Below are positions 811 through 29,164 of a DNA stretch of 64,000 bases, piece by piece. A program made the position numbers and the translations under genes. How positions within the stretch are numbered: the stretch's first letter is position 1; every line of letters begins with the position of its first letter. The notes under the pieces are model-generated. The model was not told the DNA's origin. It was given only the letters and a program-made list of their open reading frames with translations, and searched no databases. Source of the DNA: Diphasiastrum complanatum (lineage: Eukaryota; Streptophyta; Lycopodiopsida; Lycopodiales; Lycopodiaceae). The stretch lies in NCBI GenBank assembly GCA_029204225.1, contig CM055097.1:1471414-1535413 (forward strand), read 5' to 3'.

Positions 811-959
811 CATATCAGTACCACACGCCAAAGGCCCACATACTGGTACAACTGGCCCGCCCGTGCGTCATGGCAATACACCATCGCTCATATCGCCATC
901 ACGCGCCTCCCCTGTGGAATACTTGCTTTCCCTGCTCGTTGGTGCGTCATGTCGATACC
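811..959. promoter_or_regulatory. Bipartite motif cluster, gene B leader, copy 1
   Basis: Sites at 811-829 (weak), 863-879 (GTGCGTCATGGCAATAC), 889-907 (CATATCGCCATCACGCGCC) and 941-959 (GGTGCGTCATGTCGATACC), in both orientations, within the presumed gene B leader. The last one contains the ATG at 949, which suggests that this ATG was not the ancestral start. Confidence 0.5.
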
Positions 960-2796
960 CTACCTTGCAAAGGCCCGTACCAAGCAGACAACCCGCCTTA
1001 CCACATTTGCCCCACCTCCTCGCCCTCCTCTACAAAGGGCAGTGGGCACTGGTAGGAGAGTAGGTCGGCCCAAAAGACCATGGTTAAGGGATATCAGGAG
1101 ACTTCAGAGGACCACGAATCTTTTGATTCTCCGTGCTCCTTTCTACAGATCTGTGAGACTGGTAACAAGGTCACTCTCACATGATGTTCGCTAGAACATA
1201 ACAGCCCTGGAAGCCCTCCATACTGCCTGTGAGGACTTCCAAGTCAAATTCTTTGAGGACTCCACGCTTTGCACAGTGCATGCAAAGAGAGTTACCCTCA
1301 TGCCTCAGGACATGCATCTTGTCATGAGGCTGAGTACATACGATCAGGTCTTTAAGAGTGGCTTCACCTCTAGGCCACCACCTACAGAGAGAGGTCCTGT
1401 TCCTCAACGAAGGAGGAGGAAGCAGACCAAGCCCACTAGGCCTGCCAAGCGAAGGCTGGTACTCAGCAAATCACCATCCCCCCCTCACATCTCTCGTGCT
1501 TTGGTTGGACCATCACACCATTCTGCAATGCCTTCTTCTCCTCCCACCACCCCTAACTATTCAAGTAGTCCCTCTTCCATTCTCTCCATTCCATCCCACA
1601 ATAACGAGGAAATGAACTCGACTGTAGATAAAATAATATCGGATCTAGATTTAAGTTTAATAGGTGATTTTTATAAGGATCTTTGTGTAAGATTTCATGT
1701 TGATCCCAAAGATTCATTTTTGGATTCTGGGAGGTATATAATTTTTGATGAGTATGTTGCCAAAGAAATTGACAAGCTAGGAGGTCAATTTTCTTTTTGT
1801 CTAAGTTCAATTAATTATATAAATCACATAAATAAAGACTTTTGTGATGCCCTGAAGGAGAAGACCTCAGATATATCAGATCCAGTTGTGGAGGCTGGTT
1901 TGATGTATTTTGTAAATAGATGTCAATGCGATGATACTAAGGACATTGGAGTTGTGTTGTCCTTTTCCGCACACAACCTTCATAGTCCAACTAAGGCGAT
2001 GAAGTATCTTCTCCATACAATCTCGGAGACCAAAGTCTTTATTATTCCATACTGCCAAAAGTAAGTGATTACATAGAATATATTCTAGTAATATTTTTAA
2101 TAGGTATTGTAATTCCTTTAGTTTAACTAATTATCTCTTGTTTGTAGTAAGCATTGGAGTGTGCATATAATCTCCCTTAGGGAAGATTCAGATGGGATCA
2201 TTAATCCCATCTGTTTAAAGATGAACTCCTTAAAGTCTACCCATGCCGAAATGGACGTGATGTACAGCAGAATGTTGCCATTTTTGCCAAGGCCAGATGG
2301 GGCCACTGTAAATAGCCACCTGAAGATTGTTGATGCAGAAGTAAGTATTTCTCATCAAGTATTTGATAGGTAATATGATCTGTTTTTTTTCAGAGTGCAC
2401 AACTAACCTATCATACGTTTTGTGATTGAAGTCAGCTTAGCAAGAGGATGGACATAGCTGTGGATGGTTCTCCATCCGCAATGTACAGAACTTTTTAGAG
2501 TGGTACATCATGCAATCCGGGGCTCCAGATATACGAAAGGTAAATAGACTAGTGAATGGCCTAACTAAGTTATTTTCGATTTGGTTTTTGATAAGTCAAT
2601 TGACCCGATTCTTTTGGATTTGCAGTATAAATGTCGAGCATTTTCAATGAATGAGATATATGAGTTTCGTCAACAAATGTTGGTGAACTTATTATCTCAT
2701 GCAACACCCAGTCCAGCTGCGGAAACAGGAGGCCAATCAAGTCCACAACTGACACTAGTGCAGAGTGGAGATAATCCATACTACTTTGAGCTATAA
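949..2796 (+). pseudogene. Gene B copy 1: histone H3-like / Ulp1 (C48) protease fusion
   Basis: Four exons by GT..AG ends and frame: 949-2060, 2148-2340, 2441-2539, 2626-2796 (stop TAA), about 524 codons. After 8 residues the protein reads ARTKQTTR, the H3 tail. The codon before it is AAG (970-972), probably a mutated ATG. An H3 fold follows (WLRDIRRLQ, APFYRSV, ALEALHTACEDF, HAKRVTLMP), then a K/R- and P/S-rich linker, then a C48-like domain. The domain has ISDPVVEAGL, KHWSVHIIS with catalytic His at 2152-2154, Asn in MNSLKSTH (2224-2226) where Ulp1 usually has Asp, and QEDGHSCGWF with Cys at 2459-2461. One in-frame TAG (1192-1194) interrupts the fold where copy 3 has Trp. Family knowledge: C48 enzymes cleave SUMO or related modifiers. 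Histone plus protease in one protein is inferred from continuous frame and shared introns. It is probably a recently dead copy. Confidence 0.8.
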
Positions 2797-4305: not shown

Positions 4306-5378
4306 ACCTATTTGTGAGTCCCAAGATAATTTTAACTTGAGGTTAACCCAAGCAGTTTAGTCAACCAGTCGTCGCGCACGCCAGCCAATAGTATGCTTCC
4401 AATCTACCGGACTGGAAATTCAAATTTGCCCAAATATGAATTGTGTTTTCCGGCTCAAGCGAATTATGTTACATAGAAGCCACTATGTCAAGAACCGATT
4501 GGGCCACATGGACATAAATAGAGAGGAAAAAAAAAAACTCGTAACAAACGGCCCTTCTAAGTTTGAGAACTCATGTAATGTCTAGATTTTATGTGTTATA
4601 TGCTTTCAACCATATTTGTACGCTCAATATAAATGATCAATTCCATGGTGCATATTTTTCTAGACTTTATTCAAAAATGAGATCACGATACTGAATGAGC
4701 ACAAACTGGAATGGTCTCTCTTGATGCTTAGAGTTACAAGATGCTGATAAAGAGATCCGAATGAAATGGTGATGAAGATATTCAAGCGGGCAGCTGAGTT
4801 TCTCGTGTTCTTAATTTTTTCTATACCTTTTGAGCTTTTGTAATAGTTTATGAAGATTGGGTTGCATTACAGTTTAAGTGAAGGACAAAACTTAGAGAAG
4901 TCAAACAATAAACCAACCACGTGCAACAATATGCATGTTCAAACACATTCGTTCTTCCAACTAGTTCATTGGAAAGAAGTACAGTATCAGATCAACATCC
5001 CTGCTTGGCTTTGATTACGATAGTGATCTGATCAGCAACTTTAAATGCTCTTGCGGAGACTGATAGCCTTTTTTACGCTATCTGAATTCTCTTCGAAGCC
5101 AGCCAAGTTGAAGTGATATTACGTGACGAAATAGAAGAACCTAGGGCACACTATGTTTTTTTTCCTGATTCAGGAAGAAATCTCACTTAGATATGGATCA
5201 GCTTTCTACCATATTTTGTTGGTAAGACTCACGTCAAGATTGTCTGGATAGAAAAATCAGAATTTTGCATACTACAAGAACTTTTCCATTTCATACAAGG
5301 CTGGTAAGTCATGCCATTCGTCATATAGCATTTCTGATCTCTTTTCACTACAATGCAATAGGAATGCAGGCGAAGAAG
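4306..5378. other. Non-coding spacer between gene C copy 1 and the GT92 gene
   Basis: AT-rich sequence without a convincing gene. The first about 130 bp (a TTTTAACTTGAGGTTA block and a CCAAT on the minus strand) resemble the sequence upstream of gene C copy 2 near 30250 and may be the gene C promoter. The right border of cassette copy 1 is not visible as an inverted repeat. Confidence 0.5.
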
Positions 5379-9519: not shown

Positions 9520-10215
9520 TTCAAAGGGGCCGCATACGACCGCAACAGGACCACATATGACCATACGACCGCAAAGGAGGGGAGGGCCGAAGGGAGGGGC
9601 CACAAAGGACCACAAACGACCTCCTTGCGGTAGTTTGGGACTGCATAAGACCGCATACGAATGGAGGGCTAAAGGGAGGGGCCGCATAGGGCCGCAAAAG
9701 GACCGCATAGGACTGCCAACGACCGCATAAGACTTTAATGGACCGTAATGGACGTCCATAAATGACCGTAATGGACCGCAAACAACCATAATAGACTGCA
9801 GACGATCGCAAATGACCTCCTTTGCGGTCGTTTGGGACCGCATACGACCGCAAAGGAGGGGAGGGCCAAAGGGAGGGGCCACATAGGACTGCATAGGACT
9901 GCAAACGATCGCATAGGATGACAAACGCCCGTAATGGACCGCAAAAGACCGCATAGGACGCAAATGACCGTAATGGACCGCATAGGATCGCAAAACGGCC
10001 GCAAAATGACCGCAAAAGGCTGTCACCATAATAGACCGTAATGGGCCGCATAGGACCGCAAAAGGAATGCATATGATCGCAAACGACCTCCTTTGCGGTC
10101 ATTTAAAACCGCATATGACCACATACGAATGGACAGCTGAAGGGAGGGTCGAAGGGAGGGGCCACATAGGACCACAAATGATAGCAAACGATCGCATAGG
10201 ATAGCAAAAGGAGGT
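9520..10215. repeat. Degenerate array of ~10-bp units (GACCGCAWAN)
   Basis: Nearly 700 bp built from short units such as GACCGCATAG, GACCGCAAAC, GACCGTAATG, with longer blocks that recur (a GGAGGGGAGGGCC stretch followed by AAAGGGAGGGGCC occurs several times). It is GC-rich against AT-rich flanks and directly abuts the broken DDE gene on its right. Its open minus-strand frames are a by-product of the repeat, not genes. Confidence 0.85.
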
Positions 10216-10338
10216 TATCAAAATAGAAGGATCTGTGCATTCAAGTAAACATATTCTGATTTTTGTAAGTTTTTCAATGAAATTTGGATTTAATTTTAGC
10301 TATGGTGATATTCAGTTAACTATCTTTTTTTTTTGCAG

Positions 10339-12114
10339 ATCTGCATTAGTAGCTCCTCGGAATATTAAAGACAATGTTTCACTAGGAATGTCATTGGGCA
10401 CAATATTGACTTGCAAATCCACCGAGCGTATCATGATGAACAATAGGATTTCAAATGTAAAGTGTAAAATAGCAGAGTCTTTGATGGTGGACATTCAAAA
10501 ATTTTTAGATAAGACTATAGTTCAGGGTGCTTGTGATTTTGCGGGTATTAGCAGGGAAGCATATGCAACAATATTTAAACTATTTAGAGAAGCTTTTAAG
10601 CAAGTTCAAATTAGAAAAGTTCCAATCCCTAGGACATATCACTTGAAGAAAGAGAGGGATACATTAAACATAGGTATGCATAAAATCACTGGAACTCCAT
10701 TTCATATCGAGGAGGTGTATGAACTGATGGAAGATTGATATTCTATAATTCATCAAACAATCTATTTGTTGATCTAAATTACTTACTGAGATACATCATC
10801 ACATTCTATGATATAACCTATGAAAAGGTGAATGGCAAAATAATCATAGTACTTAAGTTAGATGAGTCAGAAATTGTGAAAGGACAGAAGATGGAGAGAG
10901 TTAGTATAACTCTCATGAATGGTGCTCTATCACAAACAGAGAACCAAGAAGATTTCAGATTCAGTGTCCAGTCAGAAAATGATATATGGTGGTTTGCAGC
11001 ATTTCAAGTAACTAGCCTCATTGTTACATTACATTCATTGAATAGTATTAATACATTGTAAATTAAGTCTGATTAATTTTTTTGGACAGGTGCTAAAAGA
11101 GGATCATGATATATTATCATGGATATTCTCAAGGACATCTTATCCTAGGATCATCAAGGACCATATGGATGGAGGACTTCTCAATGTTCCAGGAGTTGGA
11201 GACTTCAATGTTGAATGGCACTTAGCAGGGGATTTGAAACATTAAAATGTATGTATAATGTCTCTCACGGTGCTACATCAAAACACCCTTGTTTGTACTG
11301 TATGAAAATGGCAAAAGATGTAACTAGGAGCACAGGAATTACTAAAGAATATGCAGATCCAAACTGGAAGCCTGTGCTGCCTATCCTCTTAAAAAATGTG
11401 CATGTTTGCACTCTTCATGCAGAAGTTAGATTAATAGAAAAGATCATTTATCTTCATATAGTTTTTGCTTGGAATACTAAGCCAGCATCATTAGCAAAGG
11501 AAGCTATCTCTCGATTAGAAGATGTTTTATCAAAAGCAGGACTCCATAAAGGACATGTCAAAATTCAAAAAGATGAAAAGCTTTCAGGAAAGAATGGGAA
11601 CATGCCAACTAAGCCAAGCATAGGAGGAGCAAAAGCACGTGGTTTCCTATCAAATCATACTGGTAGGGCTTCTAATATTCAACACTCAGTCTGGACAGAT
11701 ATTATTGCTGCTACTCAGGACTTCGAGAAAGATGGCAAAACCAGAGTACTAAAAGCTGATGTATGGAAAAAGCTTGATAGTATGATTGCTATTTTAAGAA
11801 AAGAAAAATACTTTGATATTGATAAGAAAGCTGTCCAAAGGGCTTGTGTCAAAAACATGGGGAGATGATTACATCACTCATTACATGGTTAGTATTAAAC
11901 TCTTAAAATGCTTTCAAATTTAAATATATATTTAGATCCAAACATAAGACTAACATTATGATTTTGACATATGCAGCACATACTAAGAGATCATACAACA
12001 TTTTTTGCAAATACATATGGAAGCTTGAGTGTATGGTTCACAAGGGATGGAGAAGTCACACTGGCAAGCACGAGCAGCATTTCATTGAAATACACAACAT
12101 GGAGGAACCAATGA
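10339..12114 (+). pseudogene. Broken DDE transposase-like gene (RAG1/Transib-like superfamily, tentative)
   Basis: Pieces read in order on the plus strand: 10339-10738 (AGISREAYATIFKLFREAF, later LKKERDTLNIG), 10735-11012 (IIIVLKLDESEI, a possible first catalytic Asp), an exon from about 11091 with HLAGDLK, then GATSKHPCLYCMKMAKD (11269 on, a CxxC after a Gly-Ala pair), LHAEVRLIEKI (about 11415), and after an intron HILRDHTTFFANTYGSLSVW (from 11981). The order KLD ... GGDLK-type ... GATS.x.C.xC ... LH.x.R ... YMHIL resembles, from memory, a metazoan/plant transposon family distantly related to RAG1. Frameshifts near 10738 and 11235. A CxxC protein of another DDE family remains possible. It lies left of gene A copy 2 and may belong to that element. 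Confidence 0.5.
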
Positions 12115-12378
12115 AAAACGAAACTACATTTGTCAATTGTTTCAGTGGTTCTACCGTAGAGTTCAAATTCGACATATAACAAAGTCCGCACAATACAACA
12201 AGTTTAGAAAAGCATGCAAGTTCATACAGGAAGAGAAAATTAGATGATTGTTGAGTACAAGATCATCATTATCAAATCATGACATGTTCAGAATTGCTTT
12301 GCAAATTCATTGAACAAGAAAGGAGAAATACTCAATGTAAATGTATTGATTGTATTATACCAAAATACAAAGTGTCAA

Positions 12379-13338
12379 CTATTCATCATCAGATCTTGTG
12401 TCAGATTCTATGGCAGTATTGTCATGAAGAAATTCCTTGCTAGTGTATGCATCTAATAGATGTGCATTATCCTTATTTCCACTAAGCTCAATATAAGTGG
12501 AATACAATGAATAATGGGAGCTCCTTAAAGGAACATTCCCATCAGTAAAGCCTAAAATGTTCAAAACATAAGATCTTTTGACAAAAATGATCTTATTTGT
12601 CTTTACAAATTTATGTCCTCCTAGGTAAAATGATAAAGCTTTAACTGTCATTATAAGAGTCTCCCCAACTAGGCTCAACTTGGAATAAGCAATACAGATT
12701 TCATTCTTCAGGAAATGCCTAAGATAGTGGCCAAGTCCACTATCCCTCTGGAAAGACGATGTGTGTTGTTTGAAACCACCTCGTCTCGCAGCAAAATCAT
12801 CTATTATGAGAGCATCCTGCAATAGGAAATCTGTTAGCAAAAACACATTTAGTGATTAGAAATATCATAATGCAAGGAAGTTTAAACACTTACACATTCT
12901 TCATCATCAGTAGCAACCAGATCAAGATGATCAATATAATGACCACGTACTGAACTAGAATCATCCGTGAAATGCAATAATGATGGACGAGGGAAGCCCA
13001 TCAGAGATTGAAATGTCGTGAATTCTTCATCGGATGGTCTGCCTCGCCCATATTTGATAAAATCTTAGTCAAGCATTCTTCAGCAGTCATAATTCCCTCC
13101 TCGTCATCAAAATCAATACTAGCAACAAGATCATCTGTTTCAAAATCTACGAAGTCAGAGAATTTGAAAATCGTGTCGGATAATAGACATAGAACCTCGT
13201 CTTCACGATAGTCAAAAAATTTACATAAATCAGCAATAGTAAAATATACATTGTCATTAATATAATATACAGGCAAATTGAATAGACATTTGGAATCCTC
13301 TGTAGGGTTGGATTCATCAGCAGATGTATTTTGGCCAA
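12379..13338 (-). pseudogene. Minus-strand exons of unknown protein (gene A copy 2 continuation or separate gene)
   Basis: Reading leftwards from 13338: an exon beginning after CCCTACAG with NLPVYYINDNVYFTIADLC and an acidic stretch (about 13310-13001), a shifted frame reading GRPSDEEFTTFQSLMGFPRP into LVATDDEEC (about 13050-12895), then 12846-12379 containing GLGHYLRHFLKN and FVKRSYVLNILGF and ending DTRSDDE with a TAG stop. No known domain was recognised and no methyltransferase motif is present. Copia-1 separates it from the gene A N-terminal exon at 26507-26007; with Copia-1 removed the two are neighbours on one strand. Whether they are one gene is an inference. Confidence 0.4.
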
Positions 13339-13348
13339 TAAAAGAATC

Positions 13349-14086
13349 TGTTAAATTTCACAGGTGTGGATTGTCCACTACATGTACTTGTGATCTCCTA
13401 AGGTGTGTAGATGCACCAAGATCAAGACTAGATTGAGATTCAAGATCTATCTTTGATTCTATGGCAAAAACACACTACTACATGCATTCAATCACTTCCA
13501 ACTCTCACTCACACATGTGGGAAGTATTCAAAAAATAATCTAAGAAAAAACAAGCTGCTCTACTCGGGTAGAGAGAGAAAAAACATCATGAGCTCTCGGG
13601 TAGAGAGAGAAAGCTAGAAATCCAATAACTCACAAAATCTATAAAATCACCAAATCAATTAGCTTAAAAAATGAGGAGTACAATGATACTAGTAGATCCA
13701 CGAGCTACCACTATGCTTAACTATGATTGGACCATACTTTGTCACTTCTTGATCCTATTGGACCATTGATCTATGCACCTCTTAGGTCTATTGGACTATA
13801 TTCAAGCACACCTCAATTTCCTATTGGACCTCACAAGGTTCCACCTCTAAATCCTATTGGACCTCTTGGAATTCATCAAACAAAAGCTTTACACTTGTCT
13901 ACACTCTAATTGGCACGTGTTTAGCCTCTTACTCTATTTTGGCTCAATAGTGACATTACAAGTGGAAATGCATAATTTGCCATCTATGCCAAATTTATTC
14001 CTATCAACATCCTACACCTAGATGCTTGATGTGAAAAACATAAGACCCCTATATGTAACATAGATAATCTTTTTCAATTCTTCACA
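13349..14086 (-). repeat. Copia-1 3' LTR (738 bp)
   Basis: Pairs with 25244-25978. Its middle has a run of CTATTGGAC repeats (about 13750-13870) that also occurs in the other LTR. Confidence 0.9.
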
Positions 14087-14104
14087 CTCCTCCTAAAAAA
14101 TTAT

Positions 14105-15580
14105 CTATGAAGATTTGAGCATTGATCTTGATATAACTCCAAGATTAGATCTATGCTTGATGAAAGCACTTTTGCTCAAAGGCTTGGTGAGTAGATCGGC
14201 AATACAAGAGGACGAGTTGACATGCTCCAAATAGATTTCTCCTCCAATAAGCTTTTCTCTCACAAAGTGGTGTGCCACTTCTATGTGCTTGCTTCTTGTA
14301 TGAAATATGGAATTATTGGCAAGAGCTTGGGCCGAGATGTTATCACACTTGATCATTGGTAGATCATCCTGCTTGATGCACTTTAGCTCCATTAATAACC
14401 TCAAGCTCTTGATCCAAAGCACTTCTTTGGTTGTTGTAGTGAGTGCTTTGTACTCGGCCTCACATGAAGAGAGAGATATAGTATCTTGCTTTTTGGAAAG
14501 CCAAGATATTAGATTGCCTCCAAGAAAGATAGTGTATGCACTAATAGACTTTTGATTCATCTTGTCACTTGCAAAGTACGAATCCGAGTAGCCAATAATG
14601 GATAGATCTTCACTTTTATAGAGTAGACCATAATCACAAGATGAAGATACATATCTTAGAATCCTCTTGGCCATCTTCCAATGATGGATCTTAGGATCTT
14701 GCATAAATTGACTCAATTTGTGCACACAAAAACTTAGATCGGGCCTAGTAATGGTAAGCCAAATCAAGGAGCCTACAAGACTCCTAAAAAGTGTGATGTC
14801 CTCAAAGGATCTTTCATCACCTTTATTAGGACCTCTTACAATTTGCTCCATTGGAGTATCTATGCTCTTATAATTTTCCATATGGAATTTTTTCAACATA
14901 GAGTGAGCATATCTAGATTGGCATATAAAGACATGATTTTCATAAAAATCAATTTCTAGGCCTAGGATGTAATGCATCTCTCCTAGATCTTGCATTTTAA
15001 ACTCACATCCAAGTGCTAGCTTGGTTTCATCAACTAGCTTGATACAACTTCCACAAAGAATAGTGTCATCAACATAAATTAGAAGAATGACAATATTGCT
15101 ATCAACAAACTTTAGATACATGGAAGGATCATAGTAACTAAGAGTAAATCCTAGTGAGATAAGAAAAGAATTAAGTCTTGAATACCATGATCTTGGTGCT
15201 TGCTTGATTCCATAAAGACTTTTGAAGAGCAAGCACACTTTGGACTCATCCTTGATGAATCCTTGAGGTTGTTCCATATAGATCTCCTCCTCAAGATAAC
15301 CATTTAGAAAAGCATTGGATACATCTAATTGGAACACCTTCCACTTGAAAAAACAAGCAAGATAAATAAGAATTCTTATTGTCACCATCTTTGCAACGGG
15401 TGCAAAGGTCTCCTCATAATCAAGACCATGGATTTGAGCAAATCCTTTGGCACATAATCTTGCTTTATGCTTGTTGATGGTGCCATCATGATTGAACTTG
15501 ATCCGAAATACCCACTTGCAACCAATCACATGCTTGTTGGATGGAGGATCCACAAGCTCCCAAGTATTGTTGGTGATCAA
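14105..15580 (-). CDS. Copia-1 reverse transcriptase-RNase H
   Basis: A 491-residue open stretch: NNTWELVDPPSNKHVIGCKW at the start, QLDVSNAFLNG and YMEQPQGF (RT), SLYGIKQAPRSWY, LLIYVDDTIL (the YVDD active site), ITRPDLSFCVHKLSQF, then RNase H with SDSYFASD (one catalytic Asp position altered from the usual DSDFAGD), SLSSCEAEYKAL and HIEVAHHFVRE. Function: copies element RNA into DNA. The frame is open but detached from integrase by a stop near 15600. Confidence 0.88.
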   Translation of the reverse strand: MITNNTWELVDPPSNKHVIGCKWVFRIKFNHDGTINKHKARLCAKGFAQIHGLDYEETFAPVAKMVTIRILIYLACFFKWKVFQLDVSNAFLNGYLEEEIYMEQPQGFIKDESKVCLLFKSLYGIKQAPRSWYSRLNSFLISLGFTLSYYDPSMYLKFVDSNIVILLIYVDDTILCGSCIKLVDETKLALGCEFKMQDLGEMHYILGLEIDFYENHVFICQSRYAHSMLKKFHMENYKSIDTPMEQIVRGPNKGDERSFEDITLFRSLVGSLIWLTITRPDLSFCVHKLSQFMQDPKIHHWKMAKRILRYVSSSCDYGLLYKSEDLSIIGYSDSYFASDKMNQKSISAYTIFLGGNLISWLSKKQDTISLSSCEAEYKALTTTTKEVLWIKSLRLLMELKCIKQDDLPMIKCDNISAQALANNSIFHTRSKHIEVAHHFVREKLIGGEIYLEHVNSSSCIADLLTKPLSKSAFIKHRSNLGVISRSMLKSS

Positions 15581-15804
15581 TGCATAATACTCTTGCTACA
15601 TGGCATCATACCACTCCTTGGTATTGAGTGCCTCTTGTACATTCTTTGGCTCTTCATGAGAGACTTAAAAAACATAATTAGTGGAATCAAGATCCACTTG
15701 TTTGCCTTTGTCAACATATGAGAGCCTCTTGGGCTCGGATCTATCTCTCATGGATCTTCTTGGTGAAAAAATCCGAGGAGAGTCTTCTTCAAATCTCGAC
15801 CCCA

Positions 15805-16803
15805 TCACATCATGATTGTCTTCAAAATCAATAATTGATGATGCATCCATAGATTTCTTGATCTCGGCCTCTTCAAAAGATGAGTGTTGATCTTCATGGA
15901 AGACAACATCTCTACTTTCAATAACTTGAGAAGTAGAGAGACACTATAGGCCTTCTTGGTGGATGAGTATCCAACCATGATCCCTTTACATGCACTAGGA
16001 TCTTCCTTCTTCCTTGTTTCCAAGGGAATATGGACAAGGCATAAGCATCCAAAAACTCTAAGGTGATCAACCTTAGGCTTCTTCAAAAATAAGATTTCAT
16101 ATGGTGACTTTCCTCCAAGAGCTATATGTGGGAGCCTATTGCAAAGATAATTTTCACAATTAATGGCTTCTCCCCAAAAATCTTTGGGCAAAGATGCCTC
16201 AATTCTCATAGATTTTGCACATTCACATAGAGATCTATTCTTTCTCTCAGCCACTCCATTTTGAGATGGAGAGTAGGCACAAGAGAACTCTCTTTTAATG
16301 CCTTCAAGCTCACAAAAATCTTGAAATTTATTGGAGATATATTCACCACCTCTATCACTTCTAAGAGCTTTAATCTTGAATGAGAATTGCTTCTCTACAT
16401 AAGCTTTGAAAATAAGGAAATGATCAAACACCATAGATTTAGAAGCAAGAAGATATATCCAAGTGAATCTTGTGTAATCATCAATGAAAGTAACAAAACA
16501 AGTGGCTCCTGCCTTACTTGTAGTTGATGAGAAATGCACATCCGAGTGGATTAACTCCAAAGGATGCTTGCTTTTGATAGAAGATCTTGTAAATGACTTT
16601 TTGTGAGATTTAGCAATAGCACAAGCCTCACAAGGCTTGATCTTCTTGGAGAGTGACTTTGGCAAGCCAATAGCTTTGGCTTCTTTGATCATAGAGAGCA
16701 TGGATTTGTAGTTGGGATGTCCCAACCTCCTATGACATAATTCCTCCATAGAGAGCTTGTTCACAAGAGCAACATTACAAGCATATGTGAAAATCGTCAA
16801 CAT
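15805..16803 (-). CDS. Copia-1 GAG-pre-integrase and integrase
   Basis: Contains ELCHRRLGHPNYKSM, the zinc-binding CEACAIAKSHKK, LIHSDVHFSS, FIDDYTRFTW, ALRSDRGGEYIS and SPSQNGVAERKNRSL, the normal copia integrase series with D, D and E catalytic residues. Upstream, the frame continues across the Copia-2 insertion: NEYVDA at 23217 and CNVALVNKL at 16785 join in frame once Copia-2 and one target duplication are removed. A frameshift disturbs the last about 40 residues. Confidence 0.85.
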   Translation of the reverse strand: MLTIFTYACNVALVNKLSMEELCHRRLGHPNYKSMLSMIKEAKAIGLPKSLSKKIKPCEACAIAKSHKKSFTRSSIKSKHPLELIHSDVHFSSTTSKAGATCFVTFIDDYTRFTWIYLLASKSMVFDHFLIFKAYVEKQFSFKIKALRSDRGGEYISNKFQDFCELEGIKREFSCAYSPSQNGVAERKNRSLCECAKSMRIEASLPKDFWGEAINCENYLCNRLPHIALGGKSPYEILFLKKPKVDHLRVFGCLCLVHIPLETRKKEDPSACKGIMVGYSSTKKAYSVSLLLKLLKVEMLSSMKINTHLLKRPRSRNLWMHHQLLILKTIMM

Positions 16804-17440
16804 TTCCTAGCTAGTTTGAGACCTAAATTGGCTAAAATTGTAAATAGTTTTGGTTCTGGAGTTTTGCACGTGTGAACCAGGCCACAATGTTTTTATTTAC
16901 TGTATTTTTTCAGTATGATGAAGTGTCAAACTTCATACCCTTCAAAATGAGACCATTTTGATGTATTTTGGTCATATAAGCCATTTTTAGCTATTTTTCC
17001 TATATAGGGAATATCTAGGGTCAAGTACCTTCTAGAGAGAGGAGAGAGAGTCATCTTCCTCATCCATAAATAGTAGGGAAGTCGTGGAGAACAGGTTGGA
17101 GAAACCTTTTGTATGCTTCATTGAGATCAATAGATCATTGTCATTGTTTCTTCCTCCATTGAGAGCATTGTTGTGTGTATTGTCTTCAAGCTATTGTGTA
17201 TGATCTTAGGTGCTTTCCAAAAGTGGTAGGCTGATGTATTATGGACTGTATAATGCTATTTTGGGCCGCACTTGATGTTTATGGAAGTTTCCATTTGTGA
17301 TAAATGCTTTTTGATCAAGTTCTTTGCATTCTAGGTAGCATAGAATGTGTTGCCAATTCCTAGCTTATGTAGTTTGGAGTGCAAGCATTCAAGCCAATGA
17401 TCTTGGAGTTTAGATCCACTTAGGATCTGTATTTTTCACA
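16786..17440 (+). repeat. Copia-2 5' LTR
   Basis: 655 bp, with TATATAGGG around 17003, followed directly by the primer-binding site. It ends TTTTTCACA. Confidence 0.93.
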
Positions 17441-17452
17441 TGGTATCAGAGC
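17441..17452 (+). other. Copia-2 primer-binding site
   Basis: TGGTATCAGAGC, the plant copia site complementary to initiator tRNA-Met, immediately after the LTR. Confidence 0.93.
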
Positions 17453-18612
17453 TGGTTGGCTTCTATTTACAGTAAGTATTCCATTTTTGGTGATATTTGG
17501 ATGTTTGATCAAGTTTTGGCATGATTTTGCATTGCTTTGTTGATCAAATCTTACTAACCTTTGTTTTGTGAGTTGAACTTGTGGATCAAAAGCATATTTC
17601 AGGTCTATTGAAGATCAGAGGCTGAAAAGAAACTATTTTGGATCAGATCATAACACCTAATCATTTGTGATTGTGAGGCTTGTGCATATTCAATACTAAC
17701 AATGTTCTTTTCAATCCTATTGTTGACAATCTCCATTCTTGGATGAACACTCTCCTTAAGTGGATGAAACTTCTCCTTAAGTGGATGACAAATGCTCTTT
17801 TAAGTGAGTTGTAATTCTCCTAAAGGCTGAGCAAAGCTCCCATTTGGATGAAAGATCCCCTTTTTTGGGTGAACATATTGTAAGCTCCATTGTGAAGAGC
17901 ATATTGTAAAGATTGTCATCAATTTTGGCATAAATTTTGGTGTACTTTGTTGAGCATGTAAGTAACTCTCCTTATGTAATTTGATTGGAGCATTTGCTGG
18001 AAGGTGTTAACCATTATGCAAGTGTGTTTTCAGGTTCTTAACAGGTTGAGGAACATTCTCATGTGAAGTGATCTTAGATCTACATCTAAACACCAAGATT
18101 TGACAAGATAGTGAAGCTAGTCTTGTGATTCACTAAGTGTGCTCATTCATTCACCTCTAAATCTTGTATTTATCACTTGCTGGAGTTTATAAACTTTTAG
18201 AAGTGTGGTTTACATGTGGTTTTACAGGTTGAATCAATATCTTAGTGTGTTGATCATATGTTGATCAAGTTTGTTCATTACTAGGTAATCTTGGCATCCT
18301 AGTTTTGGGTATTTTCTAAGAATGCAAGTAACTCTTCACACCATAACTTGATTTGGTCACTTGCTGGAAAGTTTGAGAGCTTAAGCAAGAGTGTGTTCAG
18401 GTTGGTTTGATTTTGTAATCCATTCTTAGTGTGTGCAAAGTGTTGCATGTGTTTCAATCTTCCTTTCTATGCTTGGAAACCATCTAGGTTCAAGATAGAA
18501 GTGTTTTAGGGTCCTAAATCTTCATAGATCTCTTTATCTATCATTTGTTGAGAGAAAAGTGAGTGCTAAGTGCTTTAGGACAGAACCTAAAAGTTGAAGA
18601 AACATTAGAATC
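17453..18612 (+). other. Copia-2 untranslated leader
   Basis: About 1.16 kb between the primer-binding site and the polyprotein start, long for a copia element. No protein-coding frame supported. It holds loosely repeated blocks (variants of TTGCTGGAA..TTT..AGAG and TGTTCAGGTT), probably leader/packaging sequence. Confidence 0.6.
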
Positions 18613-21600
18613 ATGGCTTCCAATGGTGGGATCATGCTAGAGTCTAGTGAAAGGTTGAGTTCATCAAACTACTCTACTTGGAAAGTGAGGATGGAGTCCT
18701 TACTTGAGTTGAATGAACTCATGGACATAGTTGCAGAAATTGAAGAGAGACCTCTCACACTTCAAGAGCAACAAAGGTTTGATAAGAAGGCCAAAAGGTC
18801 TCTTCATATCATTAAAATGAATGTTACAAATGAACTTCTCAAGGAAGTTGGAAAGTGTCAAAGTGCAAGTGAGGCATGGAATGCCTTAAAGAAGCTCTTT
18901 GAATCAAAGTCCACATCTAGGGTATTGACCCTAAGGAGACAAATATTTTCTAGTAGGCAAAGAGAGGGTGAAAGTGCTCATGCATTTATCTTGAGAGTTA
19001 AGTCCCTAAGTGATGATTTAGCATGCATTGATGAGAACATAAAAGATGGTGAAATAGTCCAAGTTATGTTGAATGGTTTGCTAAATGAACATGCTAACCT
19101 TGTGCAAAGTTTTGCCATTCAAAGAGTCTTGCCAAGTGTGGTTGACTTGCAAGAAATCTTATTGGCTGAAGAACATAGGTTGCAATCAAAGCTTGATGGT
19201 GCATCCTTGCAAGGTGGAGGTGAAGAGGCTTTCTTCACAAAAGGCAAATTCAAGGGCAAAGGTAAAGGCAAAGGGAAATGGTCCAAAGGTGGTAACTTTG
19301 ATCATGATGATCACTCTTCCTCTTCCTCTTCTACTAAGAACAATAAGTCAAAGTTCAAGTGCTTTTATTGTGGGATAAAAGGTCATTTTGCAAATGAATG
19401 TTATAAGAAGAAAAGAGAGCAAGGAGAGAGGCAAGGAAATCTTACAATAGATGAGGAAGAACATAACACATGTGAATCACTTGTTATGACTTCAAGTTTG
19501 TTAGCCAACATAGATGATAATGATCCTTGGTGGATTGATAGTGGAGCCTCATCTCACATGACAAGACATAAGGAATACTTTACATCCTTAAAGTCTTATG
19601 AGGGAGAAGGTAACATCATCTACACTGCAAATGATGGTCAATGTGACATCAAAGGCATAGGCACTATTCCTATTTCCCTTTCAACAAATAGGAAAGCAAA
19701 TCTTGAAAATGTTTTGTACATTCCTTCAATCACTAAGAATTTGCTTAGTGTAAGTCAAATGATTGACAAAGGACTTGATGTGGAGTTCATTGGAGATGCA
19801 TGTTTGATAAGTAAATGTGGATCCTTGATTGCTCAAGGTAGGAGGCATGGTAAACTTTTCAAGCTTGATGCATGTGTGATCTCTAATCATGAAGGATGTA
19901 TGGCTAGGGAGCAATTGACAAACCAAGAAGTTTGGCACAAGAGGTTGGGCCATCCCAACTTCAAATCTTTGGAGGTAATGGCAAAGAAAGAGCTTGTTCT
20001 TGGTCTCCCTAAAAGTCTTGTTGCAAACAATAGTGTTTGTGAACATTGTGCCTTGTCCAAATCTCATAGACTTGCTTATTCTAGATCTACTTCTAGATCT
20101 AAAGAAGCTTTTCAACTTGTGCATTCTGATATTCATTCTTCTAGTACAACTAGCAATGGTGGGGCAAAGATGTATGCAACTTTCATTGATGACTTTAGTA
20201 GGTATACTTGGATCTATCTTCTTAAAAGTAAGGATGAAGTGTTTGCTGCATTTGTCAAGTTCAAGAATGAAATGGAAAACCAATTCAATACAAAGATCAA
20301 ATGCTTAAGATCTGATAATGGAGGGGAATACACCTCAAATAGGTTCAAAGACTTTTGTATAGCACATGGGATTAAGAGGGAGATGTCTAGTCCTAGGACT
20401 CCACAACAGAATGGAGTGGCCGAGAGGAAGAATAGAACCCTTTGTGAATGTGCCAAGGCAATGAGACTACATGCTAATCTTGCTAAGTCTTTTTGGGGGG
20501 AAGCTTTAGCATGTGCTAACTATCTATGTAATAGATGGACAAGTGCTTCCTTGGATGGTAAAACTCCTCATGAGGTTCTTTATGGTAGAAGGCCGAGTGT
20601 CAAGCATTGTAGGATCTTTGGATGTACATGTTTTGTCAATATCACACTTGATGATAGAACTAAAGAAGATCCTTCATCAAAGAAGGGTGTGTTTGTTGGC
20701 TATAGTGAAGTAAGCAAGGCTTACAAAGTGTACATTCCTTCTACAAAGAAAGTTGTCATAAGTAGGGATGTCATCTTTCATGAAGAGAATGTTTCCAATG
20801 TTGTTGATGTTGATGTTGATGTGCCTACTAATCATCATGATGTGCAAGATGTCTTGGATGAAGATGGAGATGCCACTCCAAAGCAAACTTCAAGGAAGAC
20901 TCAAAGGCAAAGGGCTAAGCCATCAAGGCTAACCTATGATGAAAAAGGAAAGCAAGTGGTGGACAACTCTAACTTTGCTTTTCTTACCTCTTTTGATGAA
21001 CCAACTTGTGTAGGTGAAGCAATTCAAAAGAAGGAATGGATCCAAGCCATGGATCATGAGCATCAAGCACTCATCAAAAGCAACACATGGAGGTTGGTAA
21101 AGCTTCCAAAGGACAAGAAGGCAATTGGTTGTAAGTGGATCTTCAAGATCAAGACAAATCAAGATGGATCAATCAACAAGTACAAGGCAAGGTTGGTGGC
21201 AAAGGGGTATGCTCAAGAATATGGTATTGACTATGATGAGACCTTTGCACCCGTGGCAAAGATGGTAACTATTCGAATCCTAATCTCTCTTGCAACTCTT
21301 TATGATTGGGATATGTGGCAAATGGATGTTACTAATGCCTTCTTGAATGGTGATCTTGAAGAAGATATTTACATGGAGCAACCCGAGGGCTATGTTTCAC
21401 ATGATGAGCCTAATCATGTGTGCTATCTCCAAAAGAGTTTGTATGGGCTAAAGCAAGCACCAAGGAGTTGGTATGCTAAGCTCAATTCCTTCTTACTTTC
21501 TCAAAACTTTGTTATGAGTGAGTATGATCATTCTCTCTACTTTAGATTGAATGAAAATGATATCACTTTACTTTTGATCTATGTTGATGACATTATCTTA

Positions 21601-22566
21601 AGTGGTGGTAACAATCTAGATATAGATGAAATCAAGATGGCACTCAAAAGAGAGTTTGAAATTCAAGATCTTGGTAAACTTCATTATATCTTAGGAATAG
21701 AGATTATTAGAACTTCTAAATCTACATTCATATGTCAAGAAAAGTATGTTAACTCTATTCTAAAAAGGTTTCATATGGAAGATTGTAAAGTTGTTTCTAC
21801 TCCTATGGAATCAAATGTAAAGCTAACTACAAGAAGTAATGAAAGATCCTTCAAGGACATTACTCTCTATAGAAAGCTAATAGGATCTCTTATATGGTTA
21901 ACCATCACAAGACCTGATCTAAGCTTTGTGGTTGGTAAACTAAGTCAATTTATGCAAGATCCTAGTGAGGCTCATTGGAAGCTAGGAAAGAGAGTACTTA
22001 GATACATCTCGGGATCTAGAGATTTTGGCATCTTGTATGGAGGTACTACACCTAACCTTTGTGGATTTTCAGATTCAGATTTTGCAGGTGATCAAATGGA
22101 TAGGAAGTCAACAAGTGCCTTTGCAATCTATCTTGGAGATGGAGTGGTCTCATGGCTATCAAAGAAGCAACCAACTATCTCTCTATCTTCCACCGAAGCC
22201 GAGTACAAGGCATTAACAACATGCACCAAGGAGATTCTTTGGATCAAGAGGATGTTATTGGATCTTCACTTGATGGAACCAGAGAAGACTCCAATCATAC
22301 TTTGTGATAACCTTTCAGCCCAAAGCTTGGCAAGCAATCCTGTTTTTCATGCAAGGAGCAAGCACATTGAGATTGCTCACCATTTTGTGAGAGATCAAGT
22401 CATTGCCAAAGAGGTGGAGCTTCAACATGTCTCTTCAAAGGAGTGTGTGGCTGATATCTTCACCAAACCATTGGGAAAGGACCTATATTTAATGCATAGA
22501 TCTAATCTTGGAATGTGCTCAAAGACTATGTTGAAACTAGCATCCAATGTTGAAGAGGGAGTGTGA
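18613..22566 (+). CDS. Copia-2 Gag-Pol polyprotein
   Basis: 1317 residues without interruption. Order: Gag (SSSNYSTWKVRMESLL, residues about 17-32; LKSLF/VTNELL-type helices), CCHC knuckle CFYCGIKGHFANEC (about 250-263), aspartic protease WWIDSGASSHM (about 307), GAG-pre-integrase VWHKRLGHPNFKSL (about 440), integrase zinc pair CEHCALSKSH, catalytic HSDIH, DDFSRYTW, RSDNGGEYTS (about 566) and NGVAERKNRTL, reverse transcriptase with DVTNAFLNG and LLIYVDDIIL (about 990), RNase H DSDFAGD (about 1155), SLSSTEAEYKAL, HIEIAHHFVRDQ. The TGA stop (22564-22566) lies in the first bases of the 3' LTR. It is translated as one frame, as usual for copia; the protease is expected to cut it. It appears fully functional. 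Confidence 0.95.
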   Translation: MASNGGIMLESSERLSSSNYSTWKVRMESLLELNELMDIVAEIEERPLTLQEQQRFDKKAKRSLHIIKMNVTNELLKEVGKCQSASEAWNALKKLFESKSTSRVLTLRRQIFSSRQREGESAHAFILRVKSLSDDLACIDENIKDGEIVQVMLNGLLNEHANLVQSFAIQRVLPSVVDLQEILLAEEHRLQSKLDGASLQGGGEEAFFTKGKFKGKGKGKGKWSKGGNFDHDDHSSSSSSTKNNKSKFKCFYCGIKGHFANECYKKKREQGERQGNLTIDEEEHNTCESLVMTSSLLANIDDNDPWWIDSGASSHMTRHKEYFTSLKSYEGEGNIIYTANDGQCDIKGIGTIPISLSTNRKANLENVLYIPSITKNLLSVSQMIDKGLDVEFIGDACLISKCGSLIAQGRRHGKLFKLDACVISNHEGCMAREQLTNQEVWHKRLGHPNFKSLEVMAKKELVLGLPKSLVANNSVCEHCALSKSHRLAYSRSTSRSKEAFQLVHSDIHSSSTTSNGGAKMYATFIDDFSRYTWIYLLKSKDEVFAAFVKFKNEMENQFNTKIKCLRSDNGGEYTSNRFKDFCIAHGIKREMSSPRTPQQNGVAERKNRTLCECAKAMRLHANLAKSFWGEALACANYLCNRWTSASLDGKTPHEVLYGRRPSVKHCRIFGCTCFVNITLDDRTKEDPSSKKGVFVGYSEVSKAYKVYIPSTKKVVISRDVIFHEENVSNVVDVDVDVPTNHHDVQDVLDEDGDATPKQTSRKTQRQRAKPSRLTYDEKGKQVVDNSNFAFLTSFDEPTCVGEAIQKKEWIQAMDHEHQALIKSNTWRLVKLPKDKKAIGCKWIFKIKTNQDGSINKYKARLVAKGYAQEYGIDYDETFAPVAKMVTIRILISLATLYDWDMWQMDVTNAFLNGDLEEDIYMEQPEGYVSHDEPNHVCYLQKSLYGLKQAPRSWYAKLNSFLLSQNFVMSEYDHSLYFRLNENDITLLLIYVDDIILSGGNNLDIDEIKMALKREFEIQDLGKLHYILGIEIIRTSKSTFICQEKYVNSILKRFHMEDCKVVSTPMESNVKLTTRSNERSFKDITLYRKLIGSLIWLTITRPDLSFVVGKLSQFMQDPSEAHWKLGKRVLRYISGSRDFGILYGGTTPNLCGFSDSDFAGDQMDRKSTSAFAIYLGDGVVSWLSKKQPTISLSSTEAEYKALTTCTKEILWIKRMLLDLHLMEPEKTPIILCDNLSAQSLASNPVFHARSKHIEIAHHFVRDQVIAKEVELQHVSSKECVADIFTKPLGKDLYLMHRSNLGMCSKTMLKLASNVEEGV

Positions 22567-23216
22567 AAATCGTCAACATTTCCTAGCTAGTTTGAGACCT
22601 AAATTGGCTAAAATTGTAAATAGTTTTGGTTCTGGAGTTTTGCACGTGTGAACCAGGCCACAATGTTTTTATTTACTGTATTTTTTCAGTATGATGAAGT
22701 GTCAAACTTCATACCCTTCAAAATGAGACCATTTTGATGTATTTTGGTCATATAAGCCATTTTTAGCTATTTTTCCTATATAGGGAATATCTAGGGTCAA
22801 GTACCTTCTAGAGAGAGGAGAGAGAGTCATCTTCCTCATCCATAAATAGTAGGGAAGTCGTGGAGAACAGGTTGGAGAAACCTTTTGTATGCTTCATTGA
22901 GATCAATAGATCATTGTCATTGTTTCTTCCTCCATTGAGAGCATTGTTGTGTGTATTGTCTTCAAGCTATTGTGTATGATCTTAGGTGCTTTCCAAAAGT
23001 GGTAGGCTGATGTATTATGGACTGTATAATGCTATTTTGGGCCGCACTTGATGTTTATGGAAGTTTCCATTTGTGATAAATGCTTTTTGATCAAGTTCTT
23101 TGCATTCTAGGTAGCATAGAATGTGTTGCCAATTCCTAGCTTATGTAGTTTGGAGTGCAAGCATTCAAGCCAATGATCTTGGAGTTTAGATCCACTTAGG
23201 ATCTGTATTTTTCACA
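22562..23216 (+). repeat. Copia-2 3' LTR
   Basis: 655 bp, visually identical to 16786-17440; followed by GCATC, the target duplication. Confidence 0.93.
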
Positions 23217-24422
23217 GCATCCACATACTCATTTGGATCTACTTTATAGATGCCACCAGATCTAGATCCTAATGCAAGTATCTCATCATTCTTCTTGATA
23301 GTGCAAGTATCAACATTGAATTTTACATCAAGGCCATTATCAAGCAATTGGCCAACATTAATAAGATTCTTGGTAATCTTAGGTACATAAAGAACTTTAG
23401 AGGATGCAAGCTTCAAGGGAATGTTCCCTATGCCTTCAATAGGACATTCAAAATCATTTCCAGTGTATATTGATTTCTTGACTTCATCATAAGGTGCAAT
23501 AGAAGAGAAAGAGTCCTTGGAGCTACACATATGTGAAGAGGCTCCACTATCAATATACCATAGGCCGTCCTTCTTGGAAGGAGTAGATAAGAGATCCCTC
23601 TCCATCACTTGCAATAGTGTCTTCCTTCTCATTGGTAATGTTGGCTTGCTTGAGTTGATTCTTCTTCTTGAAGCAATTGGTGGCATAATGACCTTTCTTG
23701 CCACAATAAAAGCACTGGATCTTCTTCTTCTTGAGCTTGGATGATGAAGCATTAGAGGAATCATCTTCCTTCTCATCTTTGTCTTTGGATTTGACTTTGT
23801 CCTTGCTTGAGGATTGTTGATGTTGGTTCTTGCTCCTCCCTTTGTGCTTATCCTTGGCAAAGAGAGCTTTGCCATCATTATGAGTGAGAGAAAGCTTGTC
23901 CATCCTCAAGAGCTTGTACTATTGTCTTGATTCTTCCAAAATTAGCACACTTTGGAGAGCCTCCAAACTTGGTAGCTCCTCCTTAATGGCATAGGATTGG
24001 ACAAGGTTATCAAATTCACTTCTCAAGCCATGGAGAATGACTTGAACTAGCTCATTTTGATTGATGGAATCACCAATACAAGCAAGTTCTCTATGAATAT
24101 CTTTTACTCTCAAAACATAACTAGATGCACTCTCATCACTCTTTTGGCTATTTTGAAAGATTTGATTCCTAAGAGTGAGAAGCCTAGAGGTATTGTTAGC
24201 CTCATAGATAGTCTTGAGACAATCCCAAGCTTCTTTGGTTGTTGTACAAGTACCTATCTCCCTCAATATCTCATTAGAGACATTCATCTTAATGTAGTGG
24301 AGAGCCATCCTAGCCCTCTTTTTGTATTTTTGAACCTCTTGAAGAACTTGTGGTTCTTCTTCAAGGCCAAGAACTATGTCCATCACATCTTGAAGAATCA
24401 AGATGGACTCCATCCTCATTTA
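23186..24422 (-). pseudogene. Copia-1 Gag and protease
   Basis: Read on the minus strand (the first about 30 bases of the listed span belong to Copia-2's LTR): Gag 24419-23919 (ALHYIKMNVSNEILREIGTC, LLTLRNQIF), then a frame with the CCHC knuckle CFYCGKKGHYATNC (about 23720-23680), then the protease frame LWYIDSGASSHMCSSKDSF (about 23575) and KSIYTGNDFECPIEGIGNI, ending at Copia-2. An in-frame stop after EESRQ and frame changes near 23880 and 23600 break it, so it is inactive. Confidence 0.85.
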
Positions 24423-25243
24423 AATTGAATAGTTTGAAGTGGTCAATCTTTCACTTGGTTCCAACAAGGATGAACCCATTGAAGACATTTGAAGTGAAGA
24501 AAACTCAAATGATGAACAATAAATGTTGCTACACACTCTCAATAGGATCCAATAATAGAGTACTATCTCTTCCTATGAAAGATCTTGCAACTATTTGTGA
24601 ATTGATTCTCACTAGCTACACAAATCTCTCTAAAACAAGATCTAATTCACATCAAATGATGGAGTACAGGCAAAGTTAGGATCAAACACTCTCAGCACTT
24701 GTGAAGTACTCTAAGAAAACAAATTTGACTCAAATACAATGATATTGCATGAAACAAAATGGCTAAGATCTCAAAATAGTGCCTAGATCACATATAGATG
24801 AGATTGGCAAGCATACAACTATGATTTTGGATCAACCAAGCAATCTCTTGACCAAACCAAATGTGTCCACCCAGGTCTAGGTGCCCTACCTAACCCTCTT
24901 CAAAAGCTTATAGCTTCTGATTGCTCAACCAAATGGAATGAAACTGATTGCATCAGAAACTAGACAAAAATAGCTTCAAAACAAGCTATCAAGCAAGATA
25001 AATGGATCAAGCATGAGAGAGAACATCCAAACTGAAATTGGATGTTCCTCACACATGTCTGAGCACCTGATTCCGTATAGTACCAGGTCAGACCCAATCA
25101 ATGTCCTTTTGATCTCTTTTGATCCAAGATTGAACAAGATAGCTAGGAAAATGGGCCTTGACAACTTCTAGCTCAAGATTGATGAAAATTTTTCACTTAG
25201 ATGGATCAAAATGCATGGTAACCTCAGGTAGGCTCTGATACCA

Positions 25244-25978
25244 TGTTAAATTTCACACGAGTGGATTGTCCACTACATGTACTTGTAATCTCCTAAGGTG
25301 TGTAGATGCACCAAGATCAAGACTAGATTGAGATTCAAGATCTATCTTTGATTCTATGGCAAAAACACATTACTACATGCATTCAATCACTTCCAACTCT
25401 CACTCACATGTGTGGGAAGTATTAAAAAAATAATCTAAGTAAAAACAAGCTGCTCTCCTCGGGTAGAGAGAGAAAAAGCATCATGAGCTCTCGGGTAGGG
25501 AGAGAAAGCTAGAAATCCAATAACTCACAAAATCCATAAAATCACCAAATCAATTAGCTTCAAAAATGAGTACAATGATACTAGTAGATCCACGAGCTAC
25601 CACTATGCTTAACTATGATTGGACCATACTTTGTCACCTCTTGATCCTATTGGACCATTGATCCATGCACCTCTTAATTCTATTGGACTATATTCAAGCA
25701 GACCTCAATTTCCTATTGGACCTCACAAGGTTCCACCTCTAAATCCTATTGGACCTCTTGGAATTCATCAAACAAAAGCTTTACACTTGTCTACACTCTA
25801 ATTGGCACGTGTTTATCCTCTTACTCTATTTTGGCTCAATAGTGGCATTACAAGTGGAAATGCATAATTTGCCATCTATGCCAAATTTATTCCTATCAAC
25901 ATCCTACACCTAGATGCTTGATGTAAAAAACATAAGACCCCTATATCTAACATAGATAATCTTTTTCAATTTTTCACA
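25244..25978 (-). repeat. Copia-1 5' LTR (735 bp)
   Basis: Followed on the minus strand by TGGTATCAGAGCC (25243 downwards). Differs from the 3' LTR at a few percent of positions. Confidence 0.9.
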
Positions 25979-26006: not shown

Positions 26007-26507
26007 TTATAAAGTCACTTTCCTTATAAGAAAGTGACTGATGTCCTTAATAGCTGACTGAACGGAGAATGATGAAAAGCGAGGGTCAGCAACTGAAATT
26101 TCATCATCATCTGGGATCTGAACTAACAGAAAAAGTACGAAACCACTCTGATATTCAACCAATCGACATTTCTTGTTGCAATAAGGACATAGTGAACTGC
26201 TTTTGAAAAGATCAAACAATTTGGTGAACATTCTATCCAGTCTATGTCTGAAAGCTGGGAAGAAGTGAACCGAATCAGTATAATGCATGTACTGGAGTGA
26301 ACCTATGGAGAAAATAGGCTTACTAAGTATATATCTGAATCTAACATAATGTTGATAAAAAACGTCAGAATTCGGTTGTGCAGTCCTGAAAACATGTTGA
26401 TATGGCCTGAATAGGCTGTGGAAGTAGTCCAGATTTTCAGTAATCCCAAATTCACTAAGAAATGAACTCAAGCCTGAATCTCGTGAGAATACTGAGGAAG
26501 AGGCCAT
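26007..26507 (-). CDS. Gene A copy 2: N-terminal exon
   Basis: 166 residues from ATG 26507, opening MASSSVFSRDSGLSSFLSEF as in the other copies. A later part, DRMFTKLFDLFK followed by CPYCNKKC, aligns with copy 3 NRRFTKIVSDFK followed by C. The CPYCNKKC pair suggests a small zinc site. The open stretch ends near the Copia-1 insertion (25979), with a possible GTGACT donor just before the stop. Divergent from gene B copy 2. Function unknown; no intact methyltransferase motifs were found in this copy. Confidence 0.55.
   Translation of the reverse strand: MASSSVFSRDSGLSSFLSEFGITENLDYFHSLFRPYQHVFRTAQPNSDVFYQHYVRFRYILSKPIFSIGSLQYMHYTDSVHFFPAFRHRLDRMFTKLFDLFKSSSLCPYCNKKCRLVEYQSGFVLFLLVQIPDDDEISVADPRFSSFSVQSAIKDISHFLIRKVTL

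Positions 26508-27342: not shown

Positions 27343-29164
<1,822 letters not shown>

Follow-up and report, generated by a model that had tools for sequence, protein, structure and literature searches.

A gene joining histone H3 to a Ulp1/C48-type protease domain in an inverted-repeat DNA transposon of Diphasiastrum complanatum

A stretch of 64,000 nucleotides from the lycopod Diphasiastrum complanatum (GenBank assembly GCA_029204225.1, contig CM055097.1, positions 1,471,414 to 1,535,413 of the forward strand), referred to as the window and numbered from its first letter, was analysed together with the 1.74-Gb genome that contains it. Three copies of one gene are present in the window, in which a divergent histone H3 is followed by a basic linker and a Ulp1/C48-type cysteine protease domain. 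The histone H3-C48 fusion is real at the DNA level, and the gene belongs, as an accessory gene, to a DNA transposon of several genes that has inverted repeats and is 8.7-9 kb long. Membership of a DNA transposon is new here; an earlier inspection of the letters of the window alone, referred to below as the sequence-only reading, had merely hinted at an element.

Three copies of the fusion gene in the window

Copy 1 (973-2796, forward strand) has the order H3 tail (ARTKQTTR), H3 fold, basic linker and C48 domain, and is divided into four exons. Exon 1 (973..2060) encodes the H3 tail ARTKQTTRLTTF, the H3 fold to about 1365, the basic linker and the start of the C48 domain. Exon 2 (2148..2340) encodes KHWS...KMNS, with the catalytic His and an Asn at the place of the Asp, exon 3 (2432..2539) encodes SA*QEDGHSCGW, with the Gln six residues before the catalytic Cys, and exon 4 (2626..2796) encodes the C-terminal part of C48 and the stop. 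The introns start with GT at 2061, 2341 and 2540, exactly where the sequence-only reading had placed them, and end with AG at 2147, 2431 and 2625, respectively. Copy 1 is decayed: one TAG lies at 1192 inside the H3 fold, another in exon 3 is the codon preceding the Gln of the catalytic set, and AAG, not ATG, directly precedes the tail. The Pfam histone profile was matched at 3.3e-12 (1195-2064) and, below the cut-off, at 7.1e-5 (808-1194), and the spliced protease was matched by PF02902 at 1.2e-5 (25.7 bits, cut-off 20.7).

Copy 2 (27343-29164, forward strand) has the same order, with three splice points at protein positions identical to those of copy 1. Its exon 1 (27343..28425; H3 tail, H3 fold, linker and C48 start) has been disrupted by deletions, a frameshift and the expansion of an (AT)n run, and is followed by exon 2 (28533..28710; DHWSLNLISI...KMNS), exon 3 (28823..28926; SPQQNDSFSCGW) and exon 4 with the stop (29027..29164). 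The intron positions and the HWS...SCGW signature, proposed by the sequence-only reading to be common to copies 1 and 2, were confirmed after splicing. Copy 3 (34443..35479, forward strand) consists of the H3 tail MARTRQTARLTSF, a frameshift, the H3 fold, a linker with further breaks and the C48 start, and ends at the first splice donor. The part of C48 before the catalytic residues is present and the catalytic part is absent. The same domain order had been claimed for all three loci; it holds for copies 1 and 2, and in copy 3 the C48 domain is half present because the copy stops at the first donor site.

The fusion gene across the genome

The Pfam histone search of the genome, with 150 of 6325 first-look candidates scored, gave 153 matches, among which 13 were canonical H3 genes (E 1e-45 class) and the others were weaker (1.6e-28 and up). 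Twenty loci, mostly ones with long frames, were picked for study and are designated by L numbers. Exon 1 is open from the ATG through the H3 fold and the linker to the splice donor in six of the eight type B copies compared (324-334 codons), the broken ones being L015 and window copy 2. Seven relatives of copy 2 were spliced by script; a complete open four-exon gene was found in two of them, L025 and L018, and the other five are broken. The complete gene has 470 codons and introns of 107, 111 and 99 bp. The products of L025 and L018 matched Pfam Histone (PF00125) at 1e-27 and 8.7e-27, above the cut-off, and Peptidase_C48 at 1.1e-10 and 5.4e-10 (42.2 and 39.9 bits, cut-off 20.7), respectively. 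The sequence-only reading had proposed to look for an intact copy elsewhere in the genome, and these two loci are such copies. Because the C48 match starts at residue 316 and exon 1 comprises 328 codons, exon 1 holds merely the strand before the catalytic His; the remainder of the protease is encoded by exons 2-4.

Exon 1 of L025 was used as the query for a whole-genome search, in which 122 matches (the query's own locus included) were scored of 9956 candidates; some are on unplaced contigs with identical scores, and the copies are not all independent. All 122 span the H3 fold and the linker at 84-100% identity, 120 of them extend in one frame to residue 327 or 328, in the strand preceding the catalytic His, two stop at 311, and 24 are free of stops. 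The stops in these matches are 162 TAG, 14 TGA and 16 TAA. The excess of TAG was considered as a scar of CHG methylation and this was dropped: L025 exon 1 has 11 CAG codons versus one CAA and no CGA, and this dominance of CAG means that codon use explains much of the excess. The corresponding search for lineage C, to which copy 1 belongs, gave 138 matches, many of them partial. Exon 1 is open in this second, divergent lineage as well: in L056 it can be read from MARTKQTARLTTF up to the donor; a frameshift follows in exon 2. Besides, a fourth lineage (D) with the tail MARTESTARATTT was noticed in L027 (4043-4405 and 7129-8217), with a second H3 and then C48 pieces beside it.

That the two domains belong to neighbouring separate genes, or were joined by accident within a few dead copies, is suggested by the broken state of all three window copies, by the occurrence of H3 alone in lineage A and by the prediction of the splices from DNA alone, and is nevertheless highly improbable. 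A single exon encodes the H3 fold, the linker and the C48 start in 120 of the 122 scored matches, and in two complete genes all four exons, separated by GT..AG introns, are open; this rules out separate neighbouring genes at the DNA level (the RNA level apart). Chance joining in dead copies is likewise ruled out by these matches, which end inside the protease domain, and by the occurrence of the fusion in two lineages. The proposal of one repeated H3-C48 fusion gene thus holds for the genome at the DNA level. None of the protease-bearing lineages showed the two domains as separate genes, the outcome that the sequence-only reading had set against a fusion; in lineage A the histone occurs with no detectable C48 domain, no hit at E <1 being obtained in the 10 kb fetched at any of 12 loci.

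The mobile element and its surroundings

The ends of the elements were recognised by their inverted repeats. Type A ends in CATTAGGGCCCTTTTTGGACTCAAAAAGGGCC, with 653 exact genome matches, and type B ends in CATTAGAGGAGTTCTCAATATCAAAAAGACC, with 1197, the reversed control giving 0 in the first case and the control 0 in the second. A type A element in L013 spans 759-9713, and a type B element on contig C7 extends over 8681 bp from L029:4946 to L025:7726. The type B element carries a transposase-like gene (parts S, R and V), gene X on the other strand, the H3-C48 gene, and gene Z on the other strand. Type A carries related S/R/V and Z genes in a different arrangement, and its H3 has a tail insert of about 300 residues. 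A 1.1-kb element with type A ends, at C1:67871296-67872435, has flanks that share 3 bp and is probably a short non-autonomous derivative.

In the window, the element of copy 1 probably begins in L031, outside the window on its left, and reaches about 4580, with a probable right terminal inverted repeat recognised by a weak match (4550..4580, reverse strand; CATTACATGAGTTCTC...). Copy 2 lies in a type B element, interrupted by a nested Copia element, that reaches from 10205 or earlier (the left end was not found) to 30510. From left to right it consists of the transposase-like gene with the S, R and V parts and introns (10205..12220, forward), the C-terminal part of gene X, cut by the Copia element (12382..13348, reverse), the Copia-type insertion (13349..25978) bounded by direct repeats (13349-14086 and 25244-25978, 96% identical), the N-terminal part of gene X (26010..26561, reverse; MASSSVFSRDSGL...), the copy 2 fusion gene and the right terminal inverted repeat (30483..30510, reverse; CACTAGAGGAGATCTCAATATCAAAAAG). 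The nested Copia polyprotein is open for 1322 codons (18598-22563), and a 655-bp direct repeat (16786-17440 and 22562-23216, 100%) may represent the long terminal repeats of that Copia. A minisatellite-like repeat occupies 9520-10210 at the broken left end of the element, and a stretch resembling it seems, from translations compared by eye, to be present in L031 at about 1301-1588.

For the estimation of the target-site duplication, the flanks of two copies were joined and used to search the genome for empty sites. The joined flanks of a copy inside a Copia gag gave 40 matches, of which 39 covered all 160 bases, and those of a copy inside another repeat gave 41, of which 40 crossed the joint. 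All six empty sites fetched for these two copies have neither a gap nor an extra base at the joint, so that no target-site duplication (0 bp) was made. Six other end pairs, for which the ends alone were compared, showed 0 or 1 bp of identity, save one with 3 bp. No target motif was seen by eye at eight insertion sites.

Target-site duplications are 8 bp in hAT elements and 9 bp in MULEs, and the two empty sites here gave 0 bp; in Pfam, the ten element proteins tested matched neither hAT nor, at E 1 or better, MULE. For the R part of the transposase-like protein, Pfam and NCBIfam gave nothing at E 1 and the PDB nothing meaningful, and the structure model of the protein was too poor for a structure search (predicted local distance difference test, pLDDT, 43). 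By eye, R and V contain GDLK..CLYC..HVCTLH..GMEKSH, that is, an Asp, then C(2)C, then H(4)H. The CMCT elements (CACTA/EnSpm, Transib and Plavaka), as far as the description is available, share 5'-CA..TG-3' ends and have C(2)C and H(3-4)H between the second Asp and the Glu of the transposase (PMC12730594); the ends here are CATTAG or CACTAG, and the order of residues is similar, by eye alone. CMCT elements, however, make target-site duplications of 2-5 bp (PMC12730594), compared with 0 bp at two insertions here, and the Pfam and NCBIfam searches gave no match.

Among the other genes, gene U of lineage A and gene X of lineage B were compared as possible homologues, with an E value of only 0.05. 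Three assignments for gene Z were given up: a BAH domain in its N-terminal part, for which Pfam and PDB were unsupportive and the model was poor (pLDDT 53.5), a TnsA-like domain in the same part, where the weak hit (E 0.0037) lay below the cut-off and is not believed, and a ubiquitin-like C-terminal part, which was an impression alone and gained no support from the search. IMG/VR was scanned for virus relatives with the transposase-like protein and again with exon 1; neither scan confirmed any, and the eight pattern hits of the second included no relative. A viral origin was also rejected on the ground that an intron-bearing gene in an 8.7-kb inverted-repeat element does not look viral.

Elsewhere in the window, a block of about 10-12 kb occurs twice (41063-51484 and 52402-64000) at 94-97% identity, with retroelement pieces in each, and an open frame of 524 amino acids (5382-6953, reverse) resembles a host glycosyltransferase gene, GT92-like.

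The two domains and the possible role of the protein

The histone part found its best solved-structure matches in histone H3 chains, at 1.4e-23 for type B and 1.3e-26 for type A. Six element H3s were compared over the core with copy 1 left out, and 19 core positions, including H113, K115, R116, V117 and T118, are identical to canonical H3 in all six; W47, P63 and A65 are common to the six and differ from canonical H3 (copy 1 has L63). These 19 canonical and three non-canonical positions common to the six suggest that the element H3s share one origin. D123 is not conserved, being Asn in L018, and identity between the element H3 lineages is 40-60% in the fold. In the tail, ARTKQTAR is exact in seven of the eight lineage A tails seen and in L054 and L056 of lineage C, and is altered in copy 1 (ARTKQTTR), copy 3 (ARTRQTAR), lineage B (MDRRKQTRR) and lineage D (MARTESTAR). 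Position 9 is never Lys across the five tail types compared, but D, G, L or A. The tails of lineages B, C and D are short, and no ARKS for K27 was seen in them by eye. Among six type A copies checked, L009 alone can be read without interruption from MARTKQTARD through the fold, over 412 codons, and no ARKS precedes its fold. The type A insert between ARTKQTAR and the fold (L009:5829-7064) is some 300 residues long and contains Arg/Ser and Gln runs and very long runs of Pro.

In the protease part, L018, L025 and both copy 1 and copy 2 retain the His (HWS), the Gln six residues before the Cys and the Cys (CGW); the catalytic Cys is lost in L024, and that stretch is lost in L020. Between the two lineages, represented by copies 1 and 2 and their relatives, the C48 copies are only 32-43% identical over the exon pieces that could be matched. 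Among solved structures, the L018 protease came closest to two Ulp1-type SUMO proteases, at 4.8e-4 and (yeast Ulp1) 8e-4, a modest resemblance seen with a single sequence.

Precedents are known for each half apart. In the fungus Pyrenophora tritici-repentis, a hAT element containing an H3-like gene, H3L, was described in 2013 (PMC3538342); like the gene here, H3L lies between the inverted repeats of a DNA transposon and was amplified with it. In the available part of that description, however, H3L is a separate histone gene for which no protease is mentioned, and its element has a hAT transposase and 26 near-identical copies, whereas the histone here is fused to C48 and its lineages have diverged to the fold identities given above. 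Ulp1 domains in MULEs have been described since 2006 (PMC6117577). The Kaonashi/KIU genes of Vandal MULEs in flowering plants likewise place a C48/Ulp1 domain in a DNA transposon, and in KIU that domain is part of the anti-silencing gene VANC (PMC6117577, PMC13317346); the KIU (VANC-Ulp1) proteins have been linked to hypomethylation of their own family (PMC13317346). There the partner is VANC and not a histone, the elements are MULEs, and the plants named in the accessible text are Arabidopsis, grapevine, melon and rice (PMC6117577, PMC13317346). TET/JBP genes in fungal elements and SET genes in HarbingerS, as partly accessible, resemble the present case as element genes probably acting on silencing marks; they are enzymes that edit marks and not a replacement histone (PMC12730594). 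No histone-Ulp1 fusion was found by title or abstract in the open literature, in searches that were partly aimed elsewhere and had subscription papers outside their scope.

On these sequence features, the product is proposed to be an anti-silencing protein encoded by an accessory gene of the transposon, a reading that is plausible although given somewhat less than an even chance, and it is the best guess because of the parallel with the VANC-Ulp1 proteins as far as they are described (PMC13317346). The fusion protein would enter, or compete for, H3-H4 units on the chromatin of the element, and would offer there a tail that could not be methylated at K9 and, in the shortened tails, not at K27 either. 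Entry into nucleosomes and local removal of SUMO had already been suggested as possible functions by the sequence-only reading. The attached SUMO- or ubiquitin-like protease may remove modifiers used in silencing, and the chromatin of the element would thus stay transcribable long enough for transposition. It is proposed more tentatively, and with clear doubt, that in several lineages the histone has been armed with a Ulp1-type protease, giving an H3 that would be unmarkable at K9 or K27 and would strip silencing modifiers from the element's own nucleosomes.

Several observations weigh against this anti-silencing role. The usual catalytic Asp is replaced by Asn (KMNS). Most examined copies are broken, with a stop in exon 1 in 98 of the 122 matches. 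Lineage A is abundant without a detectable protease, and the protease is therefore not required by every family member. The ratio of nonsynonymous to synonymous substitution rates (dN/dS) was calculated for six copies picked for an open exon 1, a choice that biases the values; the pooled values are 0.25 for the H3 fold, 0.47 for the tail, 0.69 for the linker and 0.81 for the part after the linker, that is, the protease-side start, where constraint is the weaker. Ten recent pairs gave dN/dS of 0.54-1.37, near neutral. Five deeper pairs (with L020, dS about 0.27) gave 0.26-0.33 over the exon, and these values, like the pooled one for the H3 fold, count in favour of the proposal. With regard to the first point, Asn in the place of the Asp serves in some relatives.

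Some of the same observations would fit a poison histone, which would join H3-H4 tetramers and disturb host chromatin generally with a protease half of low or no activity as a passenger: the 19 core positions retained in six element H3s, the Asn at the Asp place, the weak constraint on the protease part and the lack of C48 in lineage A. This is nevertheless quite unlikely, the His, Gln and Cys being kept in two lineages as divergent as stated above, which drift alone is unlikely to have preserved. Alternatively, the H3 part might act as an address label, with H3 chaperones or H3-H4 contacts bringing the transposase machinery to particular chromatin as a means of target choice, and the protease maturing element proteins or releasing the complex. 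The sharing of the element with a transposase-like gene agrees with this, as does the distribution on contig C1, where 28 of 99 type B ends lie within 1.8 Mb (64.9-66.7 Mb) versus 1.75 expected, a 16-fold enrichment; the highest count reached by any of 5000 uniform sets that were simulated was 11. Of 35 type A ends, 5 lie there too. By the 80-bp end pattern, however, only 8 of 82 hits fall in the hotspot and the others are spread over 19 of 23 large contigs and 12 small ones, the eight insertion sites share no motif visible by eye, and the hotspot could be a local duplication; such an address function is considered unlikely. A second, weaker cluster (27 of 99 type B ends) was noticed at 95.0-100.7 Mb of C1.

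The C1 hotspot had also made centromere targeting look promising, but with the copies scattered elsewhere by the 80-bp end pattern it was kept merely as a rival, in the form that the element derived its histone from the CENH3 of the host and has through it a link to the centromere or kinetochore. P63 and A65, found in six element H3s (L63 in copy 1), occur as well in two sequences that we take to be plant CENH3s. In a 13-row tree, however, these group with canonical H3, apart from the element H3s (support 83/87, below the program's bar), and seven of the eight element rows are closer to canonical H3 (46-54%) than to any CENH3 compared (no search for the host CENH3 itself was made), copy 1 giving 44% versus 45%. 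No cluster was found on each chromosome, and two 3-kb samples of the hotspot contained no tandem satellite. An origin from CENH3 is accordingly regarded as improbable.

Transposons carry anti-silencing genes, and histone variants resist silencing. If the anti-silencing role is true, a transposon that ships its own histone together with an attached enzyme would join these two known themes. With the gene one could then readily test on which histone marks plants rely to silence mobile DNA, and on which modifier (SUMO, NEDD8 or ubiquitin); chromatin assays could be aimed at it directly, and it would serve as a natural design for the delivery of an enzyme to nucleosomes.
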